A stretch of DNA of 64,000 nucleotides from Sphingorhabdus sp. M41 (lineage in GTDB: Bacteria > Pseudomonadota > Alphaproteobacteria > Sphingomonadales > Sphingomonadaceae). The notes under the pieces are model-generated. The model did no database searches. It was not told the DNA's origin and saw only the letters and a list, made by a program, of their open reading frames with translations. Both the position numbers and the translations under genes were made by a program. Positions 2,511 to 55,106 of this stretch are shown here, piece by piece (position 1 is the stretch's first letter; each line of letters starts with the position of its first letter). The DNA lies in contig NZ_CP014545.1 of assembly GCF_001586275.1 (NCBI RefSeq), positions 2,754,501 through 2,818,500 of the forward strand, read 5' to 3'.

Positions 2511-5500
2511 ATGAGTCTGACCCACATCAAAGTAAAAGGCGCCCGCGAGCATAATCTCAAGGGCGTGGATATCGAGCTTCCGCGCGAAAAGCTGATCGTG
2601 ATCACCGGCCTGTCCGGCTCCGGCAAATCGAGCCTTGCGTTCGATACCATCTATGCCGAGGGGCAGCGACGCTATGTCGAGAGCCTCAGCGCTTACGCGC
2701 GCCAGTTTCTCGAGATGATGCAGAAGCCCGATGTCGAGCATATCGAGGGCCTGTCGCCGGCGATCTCGATCGAGCAGAAAACCACGAGCCGCAATCCGCG
2801 CTCGACCGTCGCCACCGTGACCGAGATTTACGACTATATGCGGCTGCTCTGGGCGCGGACCGGAATCCCCTATTCGCCCGCGACCGGCCTGCCGATCACC
2901 GCTCAAACGGTGTCCCAGATGGTCGACCGGGTGATGACCCTGCCCGAAAAGACCCGCTTCTTCCTGCTCGCGCCCGTGGTCCGTGGCCGCAAGGGCGAGT
3001 ATCGCAAGGAATTGCTCGAGTGGCAGAAGGCCGGCTTTACCCGGGTGCGGGTCGATGGCGAATTTTACGATATCGAGGAAACACCGAAGCTCGACAAGAA
3101 ATACAAGCATGACATCGAGGTGGTGGTCGACCGTCTCGTGGTGCGCGAAGGCATGGAGCAAAGGCTGGCCGACAGTTTCGAGACCGCGTTGCGGCTGGCG
3201 GACGGGCTGGCGTTTGTGGATTTGGCTGATGGTACGGTTGAGGAGGCGCTCGCCAATCGTACTTCGACAAGCTCAGCACGAACGGAGAGTGAAGACGATA
3301 GTGCGGGAACGAAACCCATTCGTCCTGAGCCTGTCGAAGGACCCGGCGTCGCAGAAGCACAAACACCGTTCGTGTCGAGCGTAGTCGAGACACGCCTCTC
3401 GACTACGCTCGAGGCGAACGGACAGAATCCGAATTCCCCGCAAGGCAAGATGAAAGGCACCGGCCTCCCGCCGAACCGCATCGTCTTTTCTGAACGCTTC
3501 GCCTGCCCGGTCAGCGGCTTCACCATCGAGGAAATCGCGCCGCGGCTGTTCTCGTTCAACGCCCCGCAAGGCGCCTGCCCGTCCTGCGACGGCCTCGGCG
3601 AGAAGCTCCATTTCGATACGCAGCTGATTGTCCCCAATCCGGCGCTGAGCATCAAGAAGGGCGCGGTCGTGCCCTGGGCCAAGTCCAACCCGCCCTCGCC
3701 TTATTATATGCAGGTGCTCGGCAGCCTCGCGCGCCATTTCGAATTTGATCTGGAAACCCCCTGGAATGAGTTGAGCGAGCATCATCAGGATGTCATTCTC
3801 AATGGCACGCAGGGCCTTCCCGTAACCCTCCGCTTTCAGGACGGCCGCAAATCCTATGAAGTGAAGAAGCCGTTCGAGGGCGTCGTCGGCAATCTCAAGC
3901 GGCGTATGCTGCAGACTGAAAGCGCCTGGATGCAGGAAGAGCTGGCCAAGTTCCAGGCCGCGGCTCCCTGCGAAACCTGCCACGGCGCGCGGCTCAAGCC
4001 GGAAGCGCTGGCGGTCAAGATTGCGGGAGAGGATATTAGTATATCAACCCGACGCAGCGTCGGCGATGCCCTGGAATTTTTCGAGGGTCTCGGCGCACAG
4101 CTGAACAAGACCCAGAGCCAGATCGCCGAACCGATCCTCAAGGAAATAATCGAGCGTCTCGGTTTCCTCAACAATGTCGGCCTCGACTATCTCAATCTTG
4201 ACCGGACCAGCGGCACATTATCTGGCGGCGAAAGCCAGCGCATCCGTCTCGCCAGCCAGATCGGCTCTGGCCTGAGCGGCGTGCTCTATGTACTCGACGA
4301 ACCGAGCATCGGCCTGCACCAGCGCGACAATGACCGGCTGCTGACCACGCTCAAGCGGCTGCGCGATCTCGGCAATACGGTGATCGTGGTCGAGCATGAC
4401 GAAGACGCCATTCGCACCGCAGACTGGGTTGTCGACATGGGCCCGGGCGCCGGTGTCCATGGCGGCGAGGTCGTTGCCGAAGGAACGCTCAAGCAGATCC
4501 TGAAATCGAAGAAATCGCTGACCGCTGCCTATCTCAACGGCACGCGCGAAATCGAGGTTCCGGCCAAGCGGCGCAAGGGCAATGGCAAGAAGCTGACCGT
4601 ACACGGCGCGACCGCCAACAATCTGCAGAATGTCACCGCCTCGATCCCGCTCGGCACTTTCACCTGCATCACCGGCCTGTCGGGCTCGGGCAAAAGCTCG
4701 CTGACCATCGACACGCTCTACGCATCGGCGGCACGGACGCTCAATGGTGCGCGGGTGATTGCTGGCGCGCATGAGAAAATTACCGGCCTGCAATATTGCG
4801 ACAAGGTCATCGATATCGACCAGTCCCCTATCGGCCGTACACCGCGTTCCAACCCGGCGACCTATACCGGCGCTTTCACCAATATCCGTGACTGGTTCGC
4901 CGGCCTGCCCGAAGCGCAGGTCCGCGGCTACAAACCGGGCCGGTTCAGCTTCAACGTCAAGGGCGGCCGCTGCGAAGTCTGCCGCGGCGACGGGCTGATC
5001 AAGATCGAGATGCACTTCCTGCCCGATGTCTATGTGACCTGCGAGGAATGCGGCGGCAAACGCTATAATCGCGAGACACTGGAAGTGAAGTTCAAGGGCA
5101 AATCGATCGCCGATATTCTCGACATGACGGTCGAGGATGCGGTGAGCTTTTTCAAGGCGGTCCCGCCGATCCGTGACAAGATGGCCATGCTCTACGAAGT
5201 AGGCCTCGGCTATGTAAAGGTTGGCCAGCAGGCGACCACCCTGTCCGGCGGCGAGGCGCAGCGGGTCAAGCTGGCCAAGGAATTGTCGAAACGGTCAACC
5301 GGACAGACGCTCTATATTCTCGACGAACCGACCACCGGCCTGCATTTCGAGGATGTGCGCAAGCTGCTGCAGGTGCTCCACCAGCTGGTCGAACAGGGCA
5401 ATAGCGTGGTCGTGATCGAGCATAATCTCGACGTCATCAAGACCGCCGACCATATTATCGATCTCGGCCCCGAAGGCGGCGTGCGCGGCGGCGAAATCGT

Positions 5501-5582
5501 CGCGCAAGGCACGCCGGAAGAGGTCGCCAAGGTCAAGGCAAGCTATACCGGCAGCTATCTGAAGGACATGCTCGCGAAGTGA
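2511..5582 (+). CDS. uvrA: Excinuclease ABC subunit UvrA with an in-frame repeat-encoded insert
   Basis: UvrA is the DNA-damage sensor of nucleotide excision repair, an ABC-type ATPase that loads UvrB. Both nucleotide-binding halves are complete: Walker [10 protein letters not shown] twice, signature LSGGESQR and LSGGEAQR, and D-loops LDEPSIGLH and LDEPTTGLH. Zinc-binding Cys clusters are present, including CEVCRGDG and CEECGGKR in the second half. At 1023 residues it is about 80 longer than the E. coli protein (940). Most of the excess is residues 250-304, encoded by two palindromic repeats placed between [11 protein letters not shown] and [18 protein letters not shown], just before the first zinc module. 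The frame stays open, so the gene is probably functional. A LexA box lies upstream. The stop overlaps the start of the next gene. Confidence 0.97.
3259..3342. repeat. Type-1 palindromic repeat inside uvrA coding sequence
   Basis: The two arms, acttcgacaagctcagcacg (3261-3280) and the inverse form attcgtcctgagcctgtcga (3318-3337), are the same arms found in the intergenic copy at 54695-54766, here in the opposite order. In the uvrA frame they read STSSART and RPEPVEGP. The arms have diverged slightly from the intergenic copy (cagcacg for caggacg), which suggests the insertion is not recent. Confidence 0.85.
3366..3421. repeat. Type-2 palindromic repeat inside uvrA coding sequence
   Basis: The left arm ccgttcgtgtcgagcgtagt (from 3366) pairs with the right arm actacgctcgaggcgaacgg (to 3421), with a short loop. 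It is the same family as 53393-53464 and 54599-54670. In uvrA it is read as [18 protein letters not shown]. It sits 23 bases after the type-1 element, so the two form one composite insert. Confidence 0.85.
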
Positions 5583-51230: not shown

Positions 51231-51857
51231 TCAGTTGTCGTTATCCTCAACCAGATCTTTTGCAAGCTCATCAAACATCATATCCGCGCCCCAAGCTTGA
51301 GCAGCTGAAAATGCAACCTTCCGCTGTTCGATACTGGTAAGATTTCTGATCGACTTATAACCTAAATCGTGATGCGCTTCCGACCATGCATGTTGGAACA
51401 AAGTTTTGATTTGGAGTTCAAAAAAATCTGGGCAGCTTTGCCGCGCTTCACCATCCGGAAGAACATCATCCGGAATATTCAGAATAAAGTGAGTTCCCAC
51501 ATACCCAAATGCCGAGTCATCCTCTGGTTTTTTCTCTTGGATCTCAATGTGATTAAAGTATTTTTCTATCGTCTGTTCAACTTTCTCCACATCGGAGAGA
51601 TAGAAAACGGTGATTCTAGCGCCGATTTGATCTTGGATTTCACTAAATGGGTCTTTGTATTTTCGGGTTCCATCTTCGTTCGTTTTTATCGCTTTCGTTG
51701 CGAACCTGCTTGGCGATTTAGCTCTAACAGTGATTGAATCAATTCTTTCAAACTGACTAAATACTTCTTTTATGTGCAACTCGAGTTCTTTTTCAATATT
51801 CTTCAATTGATTATCGAATATTATCGAATAAGCAGTCTCTATATCAGCAACCATCAT
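51231..51857 (-). CDS. RelA/SpoT-domain alarmone synthetase, small
   Basis: The 208-residue protein is a stand-alone synthetase domain. Recognisable parts: the early RAKSPSRFATKAIK motif, DPFSEIQDQIGARITVFY (metal-binding Asp and GARI), FGYVGTHFILNIP (Tyr-Gly-x-His guanine-binding region), and FELQIKTLFQHAWSEAHHDLGYKS (EVQIRT/Glu-Gln catalytic region). All key residues seem present, so (p)ppGpp or a related product can be expected. There is no hydrolase, TGS or ACT domain. It lies in an AT-rich segment (17 of 60 bases GC in 51781-51840) and 8 bases after the partner gene on the same strand. Candidate toxSAS-like or phage-defence effector. Confidence 0.82.
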   Translation of the reverse strand: MMVADIETAYSIIFDNQLKNIEKELELHIKEVFSQFERIDSITVRAKSPSRFATKAIKTNEDGTRKYKDPFSEIQDQIGARITVFYLSDVEKVEQTIEKYFNHIEIQEKKPEDDSAFGYVGTHFILNIPDDVLPDGEARQSCPDFFELQIKTLFQHAWSEAHHDLGYKSIRNLTSIEQRKVAFSAAQAWGADMMFDELAKDLVEDNDN

Positions 51858-51865
51858 TCTAATAT

Positions 51866-52876
51866 CTACTTCTTAGTCAAACGTTGATCAGAAATGCGGC
51901 CTGATGTTGCATATTCCACTTCGTCACCTTTCCTCTCTCGAACTGTGAAAACCTTTTCGAAATCTTCGCTGGGAGCAGTTAGTATCGCTCCGTTGTCAAT
52001 TTCGACAGTCCGATAAGGCGCTTTATCCTTAAACTCTTTATGATCAAATTTGAACTTTTTCTCAAACAAGGAGGGCTTTTTGAGAAAATTTTTGATCGTC
52101 TGTTGGGTAGAATGACTGAACCCGAAGTGATCGCAAAACTCTTTGATACTGGTGTTTTTATTTTTGAATGTCGTAGGAGCTAATGTCGTTGCTGAAGCAA
52201 TCTGACCTTTGACCTCCAAGTTAGGATTATTCTTGATGGCGTTTTTCAATGCAACAACTAATCTTTTTGTTCCGGCAGCCGCTGTTTCAGTAAAATCAGC
52301 ATCCAAAAAATCTCCAATCCAGTAATCTGAAATATTTTCAGCTGACCCACCAGCCTGTCGATCTGTAACTTTTCCATTCCAGAAATTTGCAGCTGGATTT
52401 TTGTCATCAAGCAACAATGCCTTATATGAAGACATCCTTTTGACGAAAACTCGATCCAAAAATTCGACGTCGAGTCCCGTACTATCTACTTCAGCAAGGA
52501 TTGCTTGGTCAGTAGGAAATCGAGACACGACCAACCGTTCGTTCAAGCCATAATTCCCGCTGATCAAAAAAAGAAGTCCAATTCCACTTCGATTGTCTGT
52601 CATTGACTGAAGCCGCTGAGCAATGGCTCGACCATTTTTCTTTTTTGGATCCTGTTGGTAAGCAATCATAAGGTCTCGGCAATCGTTCTGTTGCGACCCA
52701 CTATTTGAGTTAAATGTAATATCGAAATCCCGCGCATCCGGCCCAGCCGAATATATTGCTTTCAACATTTCAAACAAATCGCCGGTGTTTGGTAGCTTAT
52801 CCCCTGAAATAGCGGTTGCATTCGGATCGTTTTTTCCGGGATGAATTAGGAACGCATGAATCTTGTTAATTGCCAC
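51866..52876 (-). CDS. Unrecognised protein partnered with the alarmone synthetase
   Basis: A 336-residue protein from GTG 52876, which has GGGGGA 8 bases upstream; the frame stays open to a TTG at 52930. No family is recognised. Visible parts are INKIHAFLIHPGK near the start, GIGLLFLISGNYG and FPTDQAILAEVDS (about 103-135), the motif DYWIGDFLDADF (about 190-200), and a basic C-terminal third (TIKNFLKKPSLFEKKFKFD). Overall layout faintly recalls the nucleoid-associated YejK/NdpA proteins, which is only a hint. It is AT-rich like its partner, so transfer is likely. It may sense a phage or nucleic-acid signal, or neutralise the synthetase. Confidence 0.7.
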   Translation of the reverse strand: MAINKIHAFLIHPGKNDPNATAISGDKLPNTGDLFEMLKAIYSAGPDARDFDITFNSNSGSQQNDCRDLMIAYQQDPKKKNGRAIAQRLQSMTDNRSGIGLLFLISGNYGLNERLVVSRFPTDQAILAEVDSTGLDVEFLDRVFVKRMSSYKALLLDDKNPAANFWNGKVTDRQAGGSAENISDYWIGDFLDADFTETAAAGTKRLVVALKNAIKNNPNLEVKGQIASATTLAPTTFKNKNTSIKEFCDHFGFSHSTQQTIKNFLKKPSLFEKKFKFDHKEFKDKAPYRTVEIDNGAILTAPSEDFEKVFTVRERKGDEVEYATSGRISDQRLTKK

Positions 52877-53139
52877 AATACTAGTCCCCCGTGTTCGACA
52901 TAACGATAATAGAGTACTTTTCTCAATCAAGTAAAGAAAACAGAGGCAGATCTGGAATAGCGTAAAAGTTCGACATACTGTTTTAAGTTAGAAACCGAGG
53001 TGCTTTCAAAAATGAATGGGCTCTCCGCTTTCCTACATCACACCAAATAGGTTATATATTTTCCATTTAGCAAACCACCTCTAAACCGCCACACCTATGT
53101 GCTGCGGTCAGGATGGTCACTTTGGAAGGAGTAAAACCT

Positions 53140-53637
53140 ATGACATTTCAGGACGAATTTATTCACCGCTTGCGGGTGGTGCGGGGTGAGGCAACGGGGG
53201 ACGGTGGGGAGGATAGCGGTCCTTCGACAGGCTCAGGACGAACGGACGAGAGGGAGAGTCGTCATCCTGAATTTATTTCAGGACCTCTCGAGGCTGAGCC
53301 GGAAGATCGGGGTGTGGGGGACGGGGTCCTGAACCAAGTTCAGGATGACGATTCTATGCGGTTGCAGGGTGAAGAAAGCGCTCCGGACAAATCCGTTCGT
53401 CTCGAGCGTAGTCGAGAGACTGGTGATGGTGGAGACGTGTCTCGACTTCGCTCGACACGAACGGGTGAGGATGACGAGGACAGCTCGGTTCGGGGCGGAG
53501 AACTGACACCCCCCTCCCGCTTGCGGGAGGGGCCGGGGGTGGGCCGGAACGAAACCAAGAGTGCTGGTGCGGATACAACAGACACCCCCACCCCTAACCC
53601 AGTATCAGGTGGAACTGCCCCCGGCAGTTCCACCTGA
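53140..53637 (+). CDS. Repeat-filled ORF, probably a decayed gene start
   Basis: ATG 53140 has a strong Shine-Dalgarno (GGAAGGAG). The first 18 residues (MTFQDEFIHRLRVVRGEA) look like ordinary protein. The following 147 codons are made almost only of palindromic repeats: type 1 ([11 protein letters not shown]), type 4, type 2 ([21 protein letters not shown]) and a ccctcccgc hairpin. The frame ends at TGA inside a perfect 18-base inverted repeat. It overlaps in another frame the DNA of the next gene. Whether it is translated is uncertain; it is more likely the remnant of the 5' end of the gene at 53561, split by repeats. Confidence 0.5.
   Translation: MTFQDEFIHRLRVVRGEATGDGGEDSGPSTGSGRTDERESRHPEFISGPLEAEPEDRGVGDGVLNQVQDDDSMRLQGEESAPDKSVRLERSRETGDGGDVSRLRSTRTGEDDEDSSVRGGELTPPSRLREGPGVGRNETKSAGADTTDTPTPNPVSGGTAPGSST
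53220..53245. repeat. Half of a type-1 palindromic repeat
   Basis: A single right arm, cttcgacaggctcaggacga (53222-53241) with flanking tc and acgg, of the family at 54695-54766. The inverse arm is missing nearby, so this is a solo arm. Confidence 0.8.
53260..53350. repeat. Type-4 palindromic repeat
   Basis: The left arm cgtcatcctgaatttatttc (from 53260) with aggacct and the right arm ggtcctgaaccaagttcagg followed by atgacg form an imperfect inverted repeat of about 90 bases. The same family is at 54463-54561. Confidence 0.75.
53393..53464. repeat. Type-2 palindromic repeat
   Basis: The left arm ccgttcgtctcgagcgtagt and the right arm ctcgacttcgctcgacacga are followed by acgg; the span is about 72 bases. 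It reads RLERSRET and SRLRSTRT in the 53140 frame. The same family as 3366-3421 and 54599-54670. Confidence 0.85.
53511..53532. repeat. Hairpin repeat, cccctcccgc / gcgggagggg
   Basis: A 10-base GC stem with a two-base loop (53511-53532). It is followed by ccgggggtggg, so it resembles the ends of the larger composite repeats at 37728-37863 and 54859-54992. It is in the coding frame of the repeat-filled ORF. Confidence 0.75.
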
Positions 53638-54376
53638 TACTCGCGAGCGGGAGGGGGAGACAACCCGCCACGACGGCTGGCACCGCGAGCTGCGCGTGAA
53701 ATTCCTCGAAGCCCTCGCCCAGACCGGCAATGTCCAGGCGTCGGCCTATTTTGTCCAGCGCACCCGCCAGTCGGCCTATGACCTCAAACGGCGCGATCCG
53801 GATTTTGCGCGGGCGTGGCTGGCGGCGCTGGTGCTGGCGCGGGAGGAGGCGCAGGACAAGTTGCAGGAGCGGGCCATTGAAGGCGTCGAGGAGGAAGTCT
53901 TTTACCATGGCGAAGTGGTGGCGACGCGGCGGCGCTATGACAGCCGGCTGCTGCTCGCCCACCTGGCGCGGCTCGACAAGATTGCCGAGCAGATTCCGGC
54001 GCAACGCGGGGCAGCGCGCTTTGGCGATATGCTCGACGCGATTGGCAAGGGCGAAGACACCGCCCCGCTGATCGCCACCCCGACCGAGGAGGAACTGGCA
54101 ATACAGGCCGCCGAGGCCGAAACGCACGGGAAGCCTGTGCCGGAGGAAGAAGAAGGCGAGGAATTTTACGCGGTCCGCTTCCCCGACCATGACGGCCCGC
54201 CCGACTATTATCGCATGACCCAAGAAGAAGCCGCCGAAATGCAACGCGAGGTCCCCGGCCTGACCGCAACGCCCACCGGCACCCGCGACGAGGCGGTGAT
54301 CAACGCCCTGCCCTGCAACGCCGAAGCTATGCGCGCTTTCCGGCGGGACGAGGGGAAGCAGGGAAAAAATCTATAA
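53561..54376 (+). CDS. Sphingomonad HTH-like protein with damaged 5' end
   Basis: From residue 38 the protein reads HDGWHRELRVKFLEALAQTG and goes on with NVQASAYFVQRTRQSAYDLKRRDP, the DNA-binding start of a hypothetical family often seen in sphingomonads (helix-turn-helix-like, similar to terminase small subunits). EGVEEEVFYHGEVVATRRRYDSRLLL is a second conserved patch. The only start for this frame is GTG 53561; the first 35 residues are repeat-derived, no ATG occurs, and the frame is closed upstream at 53504. So the true start was probably replaced when repeats entered. A shift relative to the ATG at 53140 would join both parts. Confidence 0.7.
   Translation: MLVRIQQTPPPLTQYQVELPPAVPPDTREREGETTRHDGWHRELRVKFLEALAQTGNVQASAYFVQRTRQSAYDLKRRDPDFARAWLAALVLAREEAQDKLQERAIEGVEEEVFYHGEVVATRRRYDSRLLLAHLARLDKIAEQIPAQRGAARFGDMLDAIGKGEDTAPLIATPTEEELAIQAAEAETHGKPVPEEEEGEEFYAVRFPDHDGPPDYYRMTQEEAAEMQREVPGLTATPTGTRDEAVINALPCNAEAMRAFRRDEGKQGKNL
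53602..53640. repeat. Perfect 18-base inverted repeat with 3-base loop
   Basis: gtatcaggtggaactgcc (53602-53619) and ggcagttccacctgatac (53623-53640) are exact inverse complements with the loop ccc. The TGA of the 53140 ORF and the reading frame of the next gene both pass through it. A perfect hairpin in a transcript could pause ribosomes or act as a terminator-like attenuator here. Confidence 0.9.
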
Positions 54377-54420: not shown

Positions 54421-54462
54421 CGTGATCGAAAGCAGCAGCTTCGTGATCGAAAGCAGCAGCTT
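54421..54462. repeat. 21-base tandem duplication
   Basis: Two exact direct copies of a 21-base unit starting cgtgatcgaaagcagcagct, at 54421-54441 and 54442-54462, with partial similarity just before. Slippage of such a unit would give copy-number variation between strains. Confidence 0.9.
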
Positions 54463-54561
54463 CGTCATCCTGAACTCGTTTCAGGACCTCGTGAGATTGC
54501 GCGCTGCCGGTGGAGGTCCTGAGCCGAAGGCCACCGCAAGGTAAATGAATTCAGGATGACG
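54463..54561. repeat. Type-4 palindromic repeat
   Basis: The left arm begins cgtcatcctgaactcgtttc with aggacctc; the right end is aattcaggatgacg. They are the same ends as at 53260-53350. The middle part differs (ggtggaggtcctgagccgaa), which suggests that elements of this family share ends but not cores. Confidence 0.7.
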
Positions 54562-54598
54562 ATTATATACGGATGCAGAGTGATGATGACCACAATAA

Positions 54599-54670
54599 CC
54601 GTTCGTCTCGAGCGCAGTCGAGAGACCGGCGATGGCGGAAAGGTGTCTCGACTTCGCTCGACACGAACGG
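54599..54670. repeat. Type-2 palindromic repeat
   Basis: ccgttcgtctcgagcgcagt at the left and ctcgacttcgctcgacacga with acgg at the right; the same family as 3366-3421 and 53393-53464, from which it differs by few bases. The 53393 and 54599 copies are nearly identical, showing recent spread or gene conversion. Confidence 0.85.
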
Positions 54671-54694
54671 AAGGCGGTGATGGTGACTTTAACA

Positions 54695-54766
54695 CCGTTC
54701 GTCCTGAGCCTGTCGAAGGACCTCTATCGACCGCAAACTGTCCTTCGACAAGCTCAGGACGAACGG
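54695..54766. repeat. Type-1 palindromic repeat, intact intergenic copy
   Basis: The left arm ccgttcgtcctgagcctgtc with gaagga (54695-54720) pairs with the right arm tccttcgacaagctcaggac with gaacgg (54741-54766) at 25 of 26 positions, with a 20-base loop. It is the intact reference for the copies inside uvrA and at 53220. Confidence 0.9.
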
Positions 54767-54804
54767 GAGGGGAGTTAGCCCCTCTTCTGCAGAAGTTTCG
54801 GGTC

Positions 54805-54845
54805 GATCAGTCCCCCGGACTGATCTGGAACGGCCGGGGGCCGTT
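54805..54845. repeat. Two adjoining short hairpins
   Basis: gatcagtcc...ggactgatc (54805-54825) and aacggcc...ggccgtt (54829-54845) are perfect stems with 3-base loops only 3 bases apart. Confidence 0.8.
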
Positions 54846-54858
54846 TCACCCGGAACTG

Positions 54859-54992
54859 GGTTGGGGTGGTGGAGATGCGAAAGCATCGCTCGCGTTAGCG
54901 AAAGGCGGTGGAATGGAGATGGTGAATTGGTAACGCAAACGCAGCGCTCAGAAGAAAGAAACCACCCCAACCCCTCCTTTGAAAAGGAGGGG
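54859..54992. repeat. Composite repeat with ggttggggtggt arms
   Basis: ggttggggtggt (54859-54870) and accaccccaacc (54961-54972) are exact inverse copies about 90 bases apart; right after the second comes a hairpin cccctcc...ggagggg (54971-54992). Confidence 0.8.
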
Positions 54993-55023
54993 CTTAAGTG
55001 ACGATTGGTGCGAAAAGCCCTGC

Positions 55024-55106
55024 CGTCATTGCGAGGAGCGAAGCGACGCGGCAATCCAGTGCGTCGCTCACCTCTCTGGATTGCTTCGCTGCGCTCGCAA
55101 TGACGA
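55024..55106. repeat. Type-3 palindromic repeat (cgtcattgcgag family)
   Basis: Left arm cgtcattgcgaggagcgaag from 55024 and inverse right arm gcttcgctgcgctcgcaatg ending at 55106. The inner parts ggcaatccag and ctggattgc also pair, giving a long cruciform. It ends 26 bases before the rimO stop and may serve as the terminator. Confidence 0.9.

Follow-up and report, generated by a model that had tools for sequence, protein, structure and literature searches.

A putative terminase-small-subunit-like gene of Sphingorhabdus sp. M41 whose linker appears to be rewritten by frame-selected palindromes and broken by a displaced, shortened hairpin

The window that we analysed, a stretch of 64,000 nucleotides from the genome of Sphingorhabdus sp. 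M41 (G000; one contig, 3.34 Mb), very probably holds one terminase-small-subunit-like (TerS-like) gene whose linker is rewritten by frame-selected REP palindromes and which is broken here by a moved and shortened hairpin. The single frame in ten relatives, the species-varying palindromes in nine of them, the selection on the frame, the predicted disorder of the linker and the point of the break are the established parts of this account.

Results

Two open reading frames make up one gene

On the forward strand, AAGGAG precedes an ATG at 53140 that opens an ORF of 165 codons (53140..53637), made of a start beginning MTFQDEF, which orthologues share, and a REP-encoded linker, and closed by a premature TGA at 53635-53637. 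The downstream ORF (53561..54376, forward strand) is in frame +1 relative to the first and stays open up to the TAA at 54374-54376. Its earliest possible start is GTG 53561, all others lying further 3', and both frames are open across 53561-53634. The conserved domain of this second part runs from RHDGW (53666) to the TAA. A sequence-only reading had described the good start with its ribosome-binding site, the different frames of the two ORFs and the first ORF as nearly all repeats, and we could confirm the observation. The repeats are genuine: REP-arm matches account for 208 nt of the 526-nt segment 53140-53665, compared to 0.35% of 464 kb from this genome (the 64-kb window plus 400 kb of sampled stretches).

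By searching 60 related genomes, we found orthologues 61-92% identical and more distant relatives below that, the named close relatives being Sphingorhabdus sp. 109 and sphingomonad MAGs. Ten of the closest relatives encode both parts as a single open frame, which begins with MTFQDEF, MTYQDEF, MDYQDDF or MGFQDDF and ends in a terminase-small-subunit-like domain. Also, homologues begin like MTFQDEFIHRLRVVRGEA, with G015 and G024 identical across these 18 residues, and no homologues with a different N-terminus were found. As the sequence-only reading had proposed, this comparison indicates that a single gene is split here, with ATG 53140 opening its first part and its second part ending at 54376. 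Eight genomes have rimO next to the gene on the side where it lies in the window, and these rimO copies are 94-99% identical. One of these eight, G014 (L008/L048), has neither an MTFQDEF-type start nor the upstream motif described below, which makes it a second copy damaged at its N-terminus.

The linker is built of palindromes

Along the linker (all coordinates on the forward strand), we could distinguish a REP arm of family F1 (GTCCTTCGACAGGCTCAGGACGAACGG; 53219..53245), whose core has 40 exact copies in the genome, a CGTC-tagged head-to-head REP dimer of family F3 (TCGTCATCCTGAA...TTCAGGATGACGA; 53259..53351; inverted repeat I5), a REP dimer of family F2 (CCGTTCGTCTCGAGC...GCTCGACACGAACGG; 53393..53465; repeat D1), the palindrome P1 (CACCCCCCTCCCGCTTGCGGGAGGGGCCGGGGGTGGGCC; 53507..53545) and, with a nested hairpin inside it, the palindrome P2 (53583..53658), identified by inverted repeats I4 and I11 and by alignment as an inverted copy of P1. 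Folding of this region as RNA gives -265 kcal/mol, with z = -8.4 relative to shuffles; no Rfam match was obtained at the gathering score, and a known structured RNA was rejected on that ground. These REP families form another cluster, without assigned strand, downstream of the gene in the spacer to rimO (54462..55104); it includes a further nested composite palindrome, built in the same way, at about 54783-54870. A total of 38 REP clusters was found in the 464 kb, most of them outside predicted genes.

We compared the families, by reading only, with the CGTC-tagged REP pattern, that is CGTC at one end, an 8-9 bp stem starting AT, a loop of 4-5 nt and a CCA-like tail. F3 (CGTC-ATCCTGAA-CTTGT-TTCAGGAT, in L005) fits this pattern and F4 (CGTC-ATTGCG...CGCAAT-CCA) nearly does; F1 and F2 have CGTC close to an end and a stem unlike that of the pattern, and neither F5-F8 nor the nested hairpin fits. 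Like CGTC-tagged REPs, the elements of this genome are dispersed, mostly intergenic and present as head-to-head dimers. A search for RAYT genes (PF01797) found none in this genome, although 13 of the 32 genus genomes have one, so that here, as for CGTC-tagged REPs, there is no dedicated RAYT-type transposase and mobilisation of the REPs by a RAYT is unsupported. We also considered the TerS-like gene itself as mobiliser of the repeats and found no link, with 10 TerS-like matches and no F1 core in G006 compared to 4 and 40 in G000.

The linker is under selection for translation

Nine of the ten intact relatives contain palindromic elements in the segment that separates the start from RHDGW, with sets that vary among species; among short linkers, L015 holds one arm only and L014 none, and the longest repeat-rich linker reaches about 200 codons (L007). 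First, linker length is a multiple of three in 10 out of 10 intact relatives. Second, over the 1,294 codons of these ten linkers, the coding frame is free of stops, while the two other frames contain 25 and 91. Together, these data show selection for translation of the linker. A translated repeat domain, which the sequence-only reading had offered as its alternative, is thus the normal state of the gene, the frame being held through the repeats in all ten relatives. The linker of the window measures 526 nt (1 modulo 3) and contains one stop.

The same data bear on the proposal that the REP-rich ORF is untranslated, the true start lying downstream and the palindromes acting in a 5' untranslated RNA. 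Di Nocera et al. (2013, PMC3733652) suggest this for many N-terminal REPs and caution that many of them may fall outside the real gene. However, the start peptide is kept here even in distant relatives, and all ten linkers stay open in a single frame while the other two have 25 and 91 stops, which an untranslated RNA would not do; we regard this proposal as very improbable.

In an AlphaFold model made for the intact protein of G015 with an alignment of 11 sequences, a helix spans residues 3-16 and a folded domain follows the linker, while pLDDT is about 30 for most of residues 16-117, and the linker is predicted to be disordered. The protein would thus begin with a short helix (MTFQDEF...), continue with a long linker and end in a TerS-like helical domain. 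We propose that small REP-type palindromes, mostly head-to-head CGTC-type dimers together with nested C/G-rich palindromes, were inserted in this clade, building up and rewriting the linker. Disorder of the linker would make such insertions tolerable, together with the removal by selection of those that shift the frame or bring a stop.

A single hairpin breaks the frame

Aligned with G015 and G028, the P2 of the window has 41 nt (53601-53641), the nested hairpin, where these relatives have CTCC, a net gain of 37 nt that changes the frame to +1 and supplies the TGA stop. The frame change is due to this last palindrome alone, the other palindromes being in frame. Hence, the sequence-only reading was right that several repeats had entered the N-terminal region, but the change of frame that it ascribed to them comes from one hairpin. 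P1 is plain in the window, whereas in G015 and G028 it carries a 64-nt form of the hairpin in frame: replacing 4 nt by 64 adds 60 and keeps the frame, replacing them by 41 adds 37 and loses it. The orientation of the hairpin in P2 of the window is reversed compared to that in P1 of G015 and G028. Among the 32 genus genomes, the arm pair AGTATCAGGT...ACCTGATACT occurs once each in G000, G015 and G028, always in this gene, and the 21-nt core of the hairpin has one further relative, in G025. A fresh insertion of a genome-wide element was rejected as the cause of the break, given that the arms are private to this gene.

We infer instead that the nested hairpin passed from P1 to P2 by exchange between these neighbouring inverted palindromes and lost an inner hairpin of 23 nt, so that a frame-neutral +60 became +37. 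The reversed orientation observed in P2 is the one that such an exchange would produce, and the P1 state, shared by G028 and G015, is likely the older one. We consider this route probable, judging from position and orientation in three genomes. With the frame lost, the full-length protein would not be made, and the domain would be either lost or a low-level product of an internal start such as GTG 53561.

Could the break be an artefact of sequencing or assembling a strong hairpin, the true strain having a single frame like its relatives? Perfect G/C-rich hairpins are error-prone and this one has a perfect 19-bp stem; moreover, the species is represented by one assembly, and the window branch still looks constrained. 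However, no homopolymer slip is seen, the runs beside the hairpin being equal in length in G015 and G028, the genome assembled as one contig, and a hairpin with private arms in the other palindrome and in reverse orientation goes beyond a simple error. We therefore consider such an error unlikely, and keep the displaced, shortened hairpin as our reading.

The domain remains constrained

Between the window and G015, the domain has a dN/dS of 0.20; the window branch carries about 12.5 synonymous and 6.5 non-synonymous changes. The domain is still under purifying selection between the two and may still be translated in the window; these values would fit a recent loss as well as continued use, and the break is probably recent. 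Constraint on the domain could also mean that translation rejoins the frames, by slipping +1 within a C-rich stretch or by a ribosomal bypass of the hairpin, and that the gene works; the overlap of both open frames at 53561-53634 and the perfect hairpin exactly at the junction are compatible with this. However, none of the ten intact relatives needs such an event, and neither a conserved slippery site nor a matched take-off and landing arrangement was found, so that rejoining has only a slight chance of being correct compared to a simple break by the displaced hairpin.

The conserved part matches the terminase small subunit profile phrog_4044 with an E-value of 4.5e-18 over residues 41-137; a Pfam search of this part returned no family. 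Foldseek ranked the TerS of phage Sf6 (3hef) fifth, a weak lead with a probability of 0.63 but an E-value of 0.74. By reading the predicted neighbours in the window and in the rimO-linked loci, we recognised no terL-like gene beside the TerS-like gene, and none of the TerS-like copies looked at has a large terminase alongside. TerS-like matches reach 14 per genus genome (G031 and others). The gene, a chromosomal one, would thus encode a solitary terminase-small-subunit-like protein, a putative TerS by profile. It has in common with gp1 of RcGTA (Sherlock et al. 2019, PMC6854486) and with Sf6 TerS a TerS-type domain, as judged with phrog_4044. Unlike these two, it is solitary, without an adjacent large terminase, carries a long variable linker and belongs to a set of related matches that reaches 14 per genome. 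A search of viral contigs found no relative of the gene with the query used, and a phage origin was rejected for that query.

An upstream motif links TerS-like genes to a lysis operon

A conserved promoter- or operator-like motif, TTTCCTACA-N5-CCANATAGGTTA, lies at 53029..53054 on the forward strand (exact match, 0 expected by chance), 85 nt ahead of ATG 53140. It is present in 1-10 copies in 31 of the 32 genus genomes, and the reversed control gave none. All 55 distinct copies examined stand at most 1.7 kb upstream of either a TerS-like gene (38) or an operon encoding a GH108 endolysin and a gene-transfer-agent (GTA) holin (17, in two of which the holin alone was recognised). Part of the 55 copies came from loci fetched for TerS-like proteins; the loci obtained by motif only (L142-L171) show the same two classes. 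In Pfam searches the lysis operon matched the holin family PF11351 (E 2.9e-31) and GH108 (E 1.2e-23), and a copy of the motif precedes a GH108 endolysin and GTA_holin_3TM operon in many genomes, for instance at L172 4879-4904. Upstream of the GTA structural cluster, a search allowing up to 3 mismatches did not find the motif.

This distribution is suggestive of a link between TerS-like genes and gene transfer agents, and the motif may mark a GTA regulon. At slightly under even chances, these genes would form a genus-wide solitary family with a palindrome-rewritten linker, co-induced with GTA release and having the roughly 27-nt motif in common with the GH108/GTA-holin operon alone; their role would be that of additional small terminases or of DNA-binding regulators in GTA packaging.

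The stretch between the conserved upstream gene (YIRGGTRRVPAQI...) and the TerS-like gene (window 51231-52930) is, in the relatives (upstream of the gene in L042-L050), variable and poor in typical codons, much like an accessory-gene slot.

Discussion

By analogy, our finding belongs with known translated palindromes. Rickettsia palindromic elements (RPEs) are translated within protein genes (Ogata et al. 2000, 2002, as described in PMC2229807, PMC10969869 and PMC3767692). They lie in solvent-exposed parts of proteins, frequently at one site across orthologues, and their mechanism of movement is described as unknown. Both cases concern in-frame translated palindromes in alphaproteobacteria, a likeness of description. 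Unlike RPEs, the palindromes reported here belong to a sphingomonad genus, several families are mixed and nested in one linker and rewritten between species, and one hairpin breaks the frame.

CGTC-tagged REPs are the other relevant group. Di Nocera et al. (2013, PMC3733652) report them as common in alphaproteobacteria, apparently without a dedicated transposase, and describe intragenic copies in repair genes of several bacteria, uvrA among them, and in tRNA-related genes of Sphingopyxis alaskensis. By reading, some of the elements found here resemble them in the CGTC tag and short stems; they also form head-to-head dimers, are mainly intergenic, occur in uvrA and lack a dedicated transposase. 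In contrast, F5-F8 and the nested 41/64-nt hairpin have no CGTC tag, and the linker of L007 is longer than the 43-82 residues given there for clusters. In the parts of the open-licence literature covered, we found no description of a repeat-rich linker of this length rewritten species by species, nor of a frame-breaking hairpin displaced between sister palindromes.

The ten intact relatives and two N-terminally damaged copies form a natural series in which palindromes enter one translated linker, replace each other within it and finally break it. From such a series one can learn how repeats travel when no transposase is present and how they are filtered by selection. In addition, the motif held in common with the GTA lysis operon gives a testable handle on the role of solitary TerS-like genes.

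In-frame palindromes were also seen in other genes, identified by Pfam. UvrA (window 2511-5582) has about 60 residues of in-frame palindrome (3259-3421) just past its interaction domain, and in-frame REP dimers lie in TrmD (L069 18358-18429) and in the GTA-type large terminase gene terL of a GTA-like cluster (L077 9998-10071). As with RPEs, in-frame insertion into conserved protein genes is therefore found in uvrA, trmD, GTA-type terL and the relatives of the present gene. Across the genus, UvrA and TrmD each carry differing palindromes at one site in one species group and none in the others.
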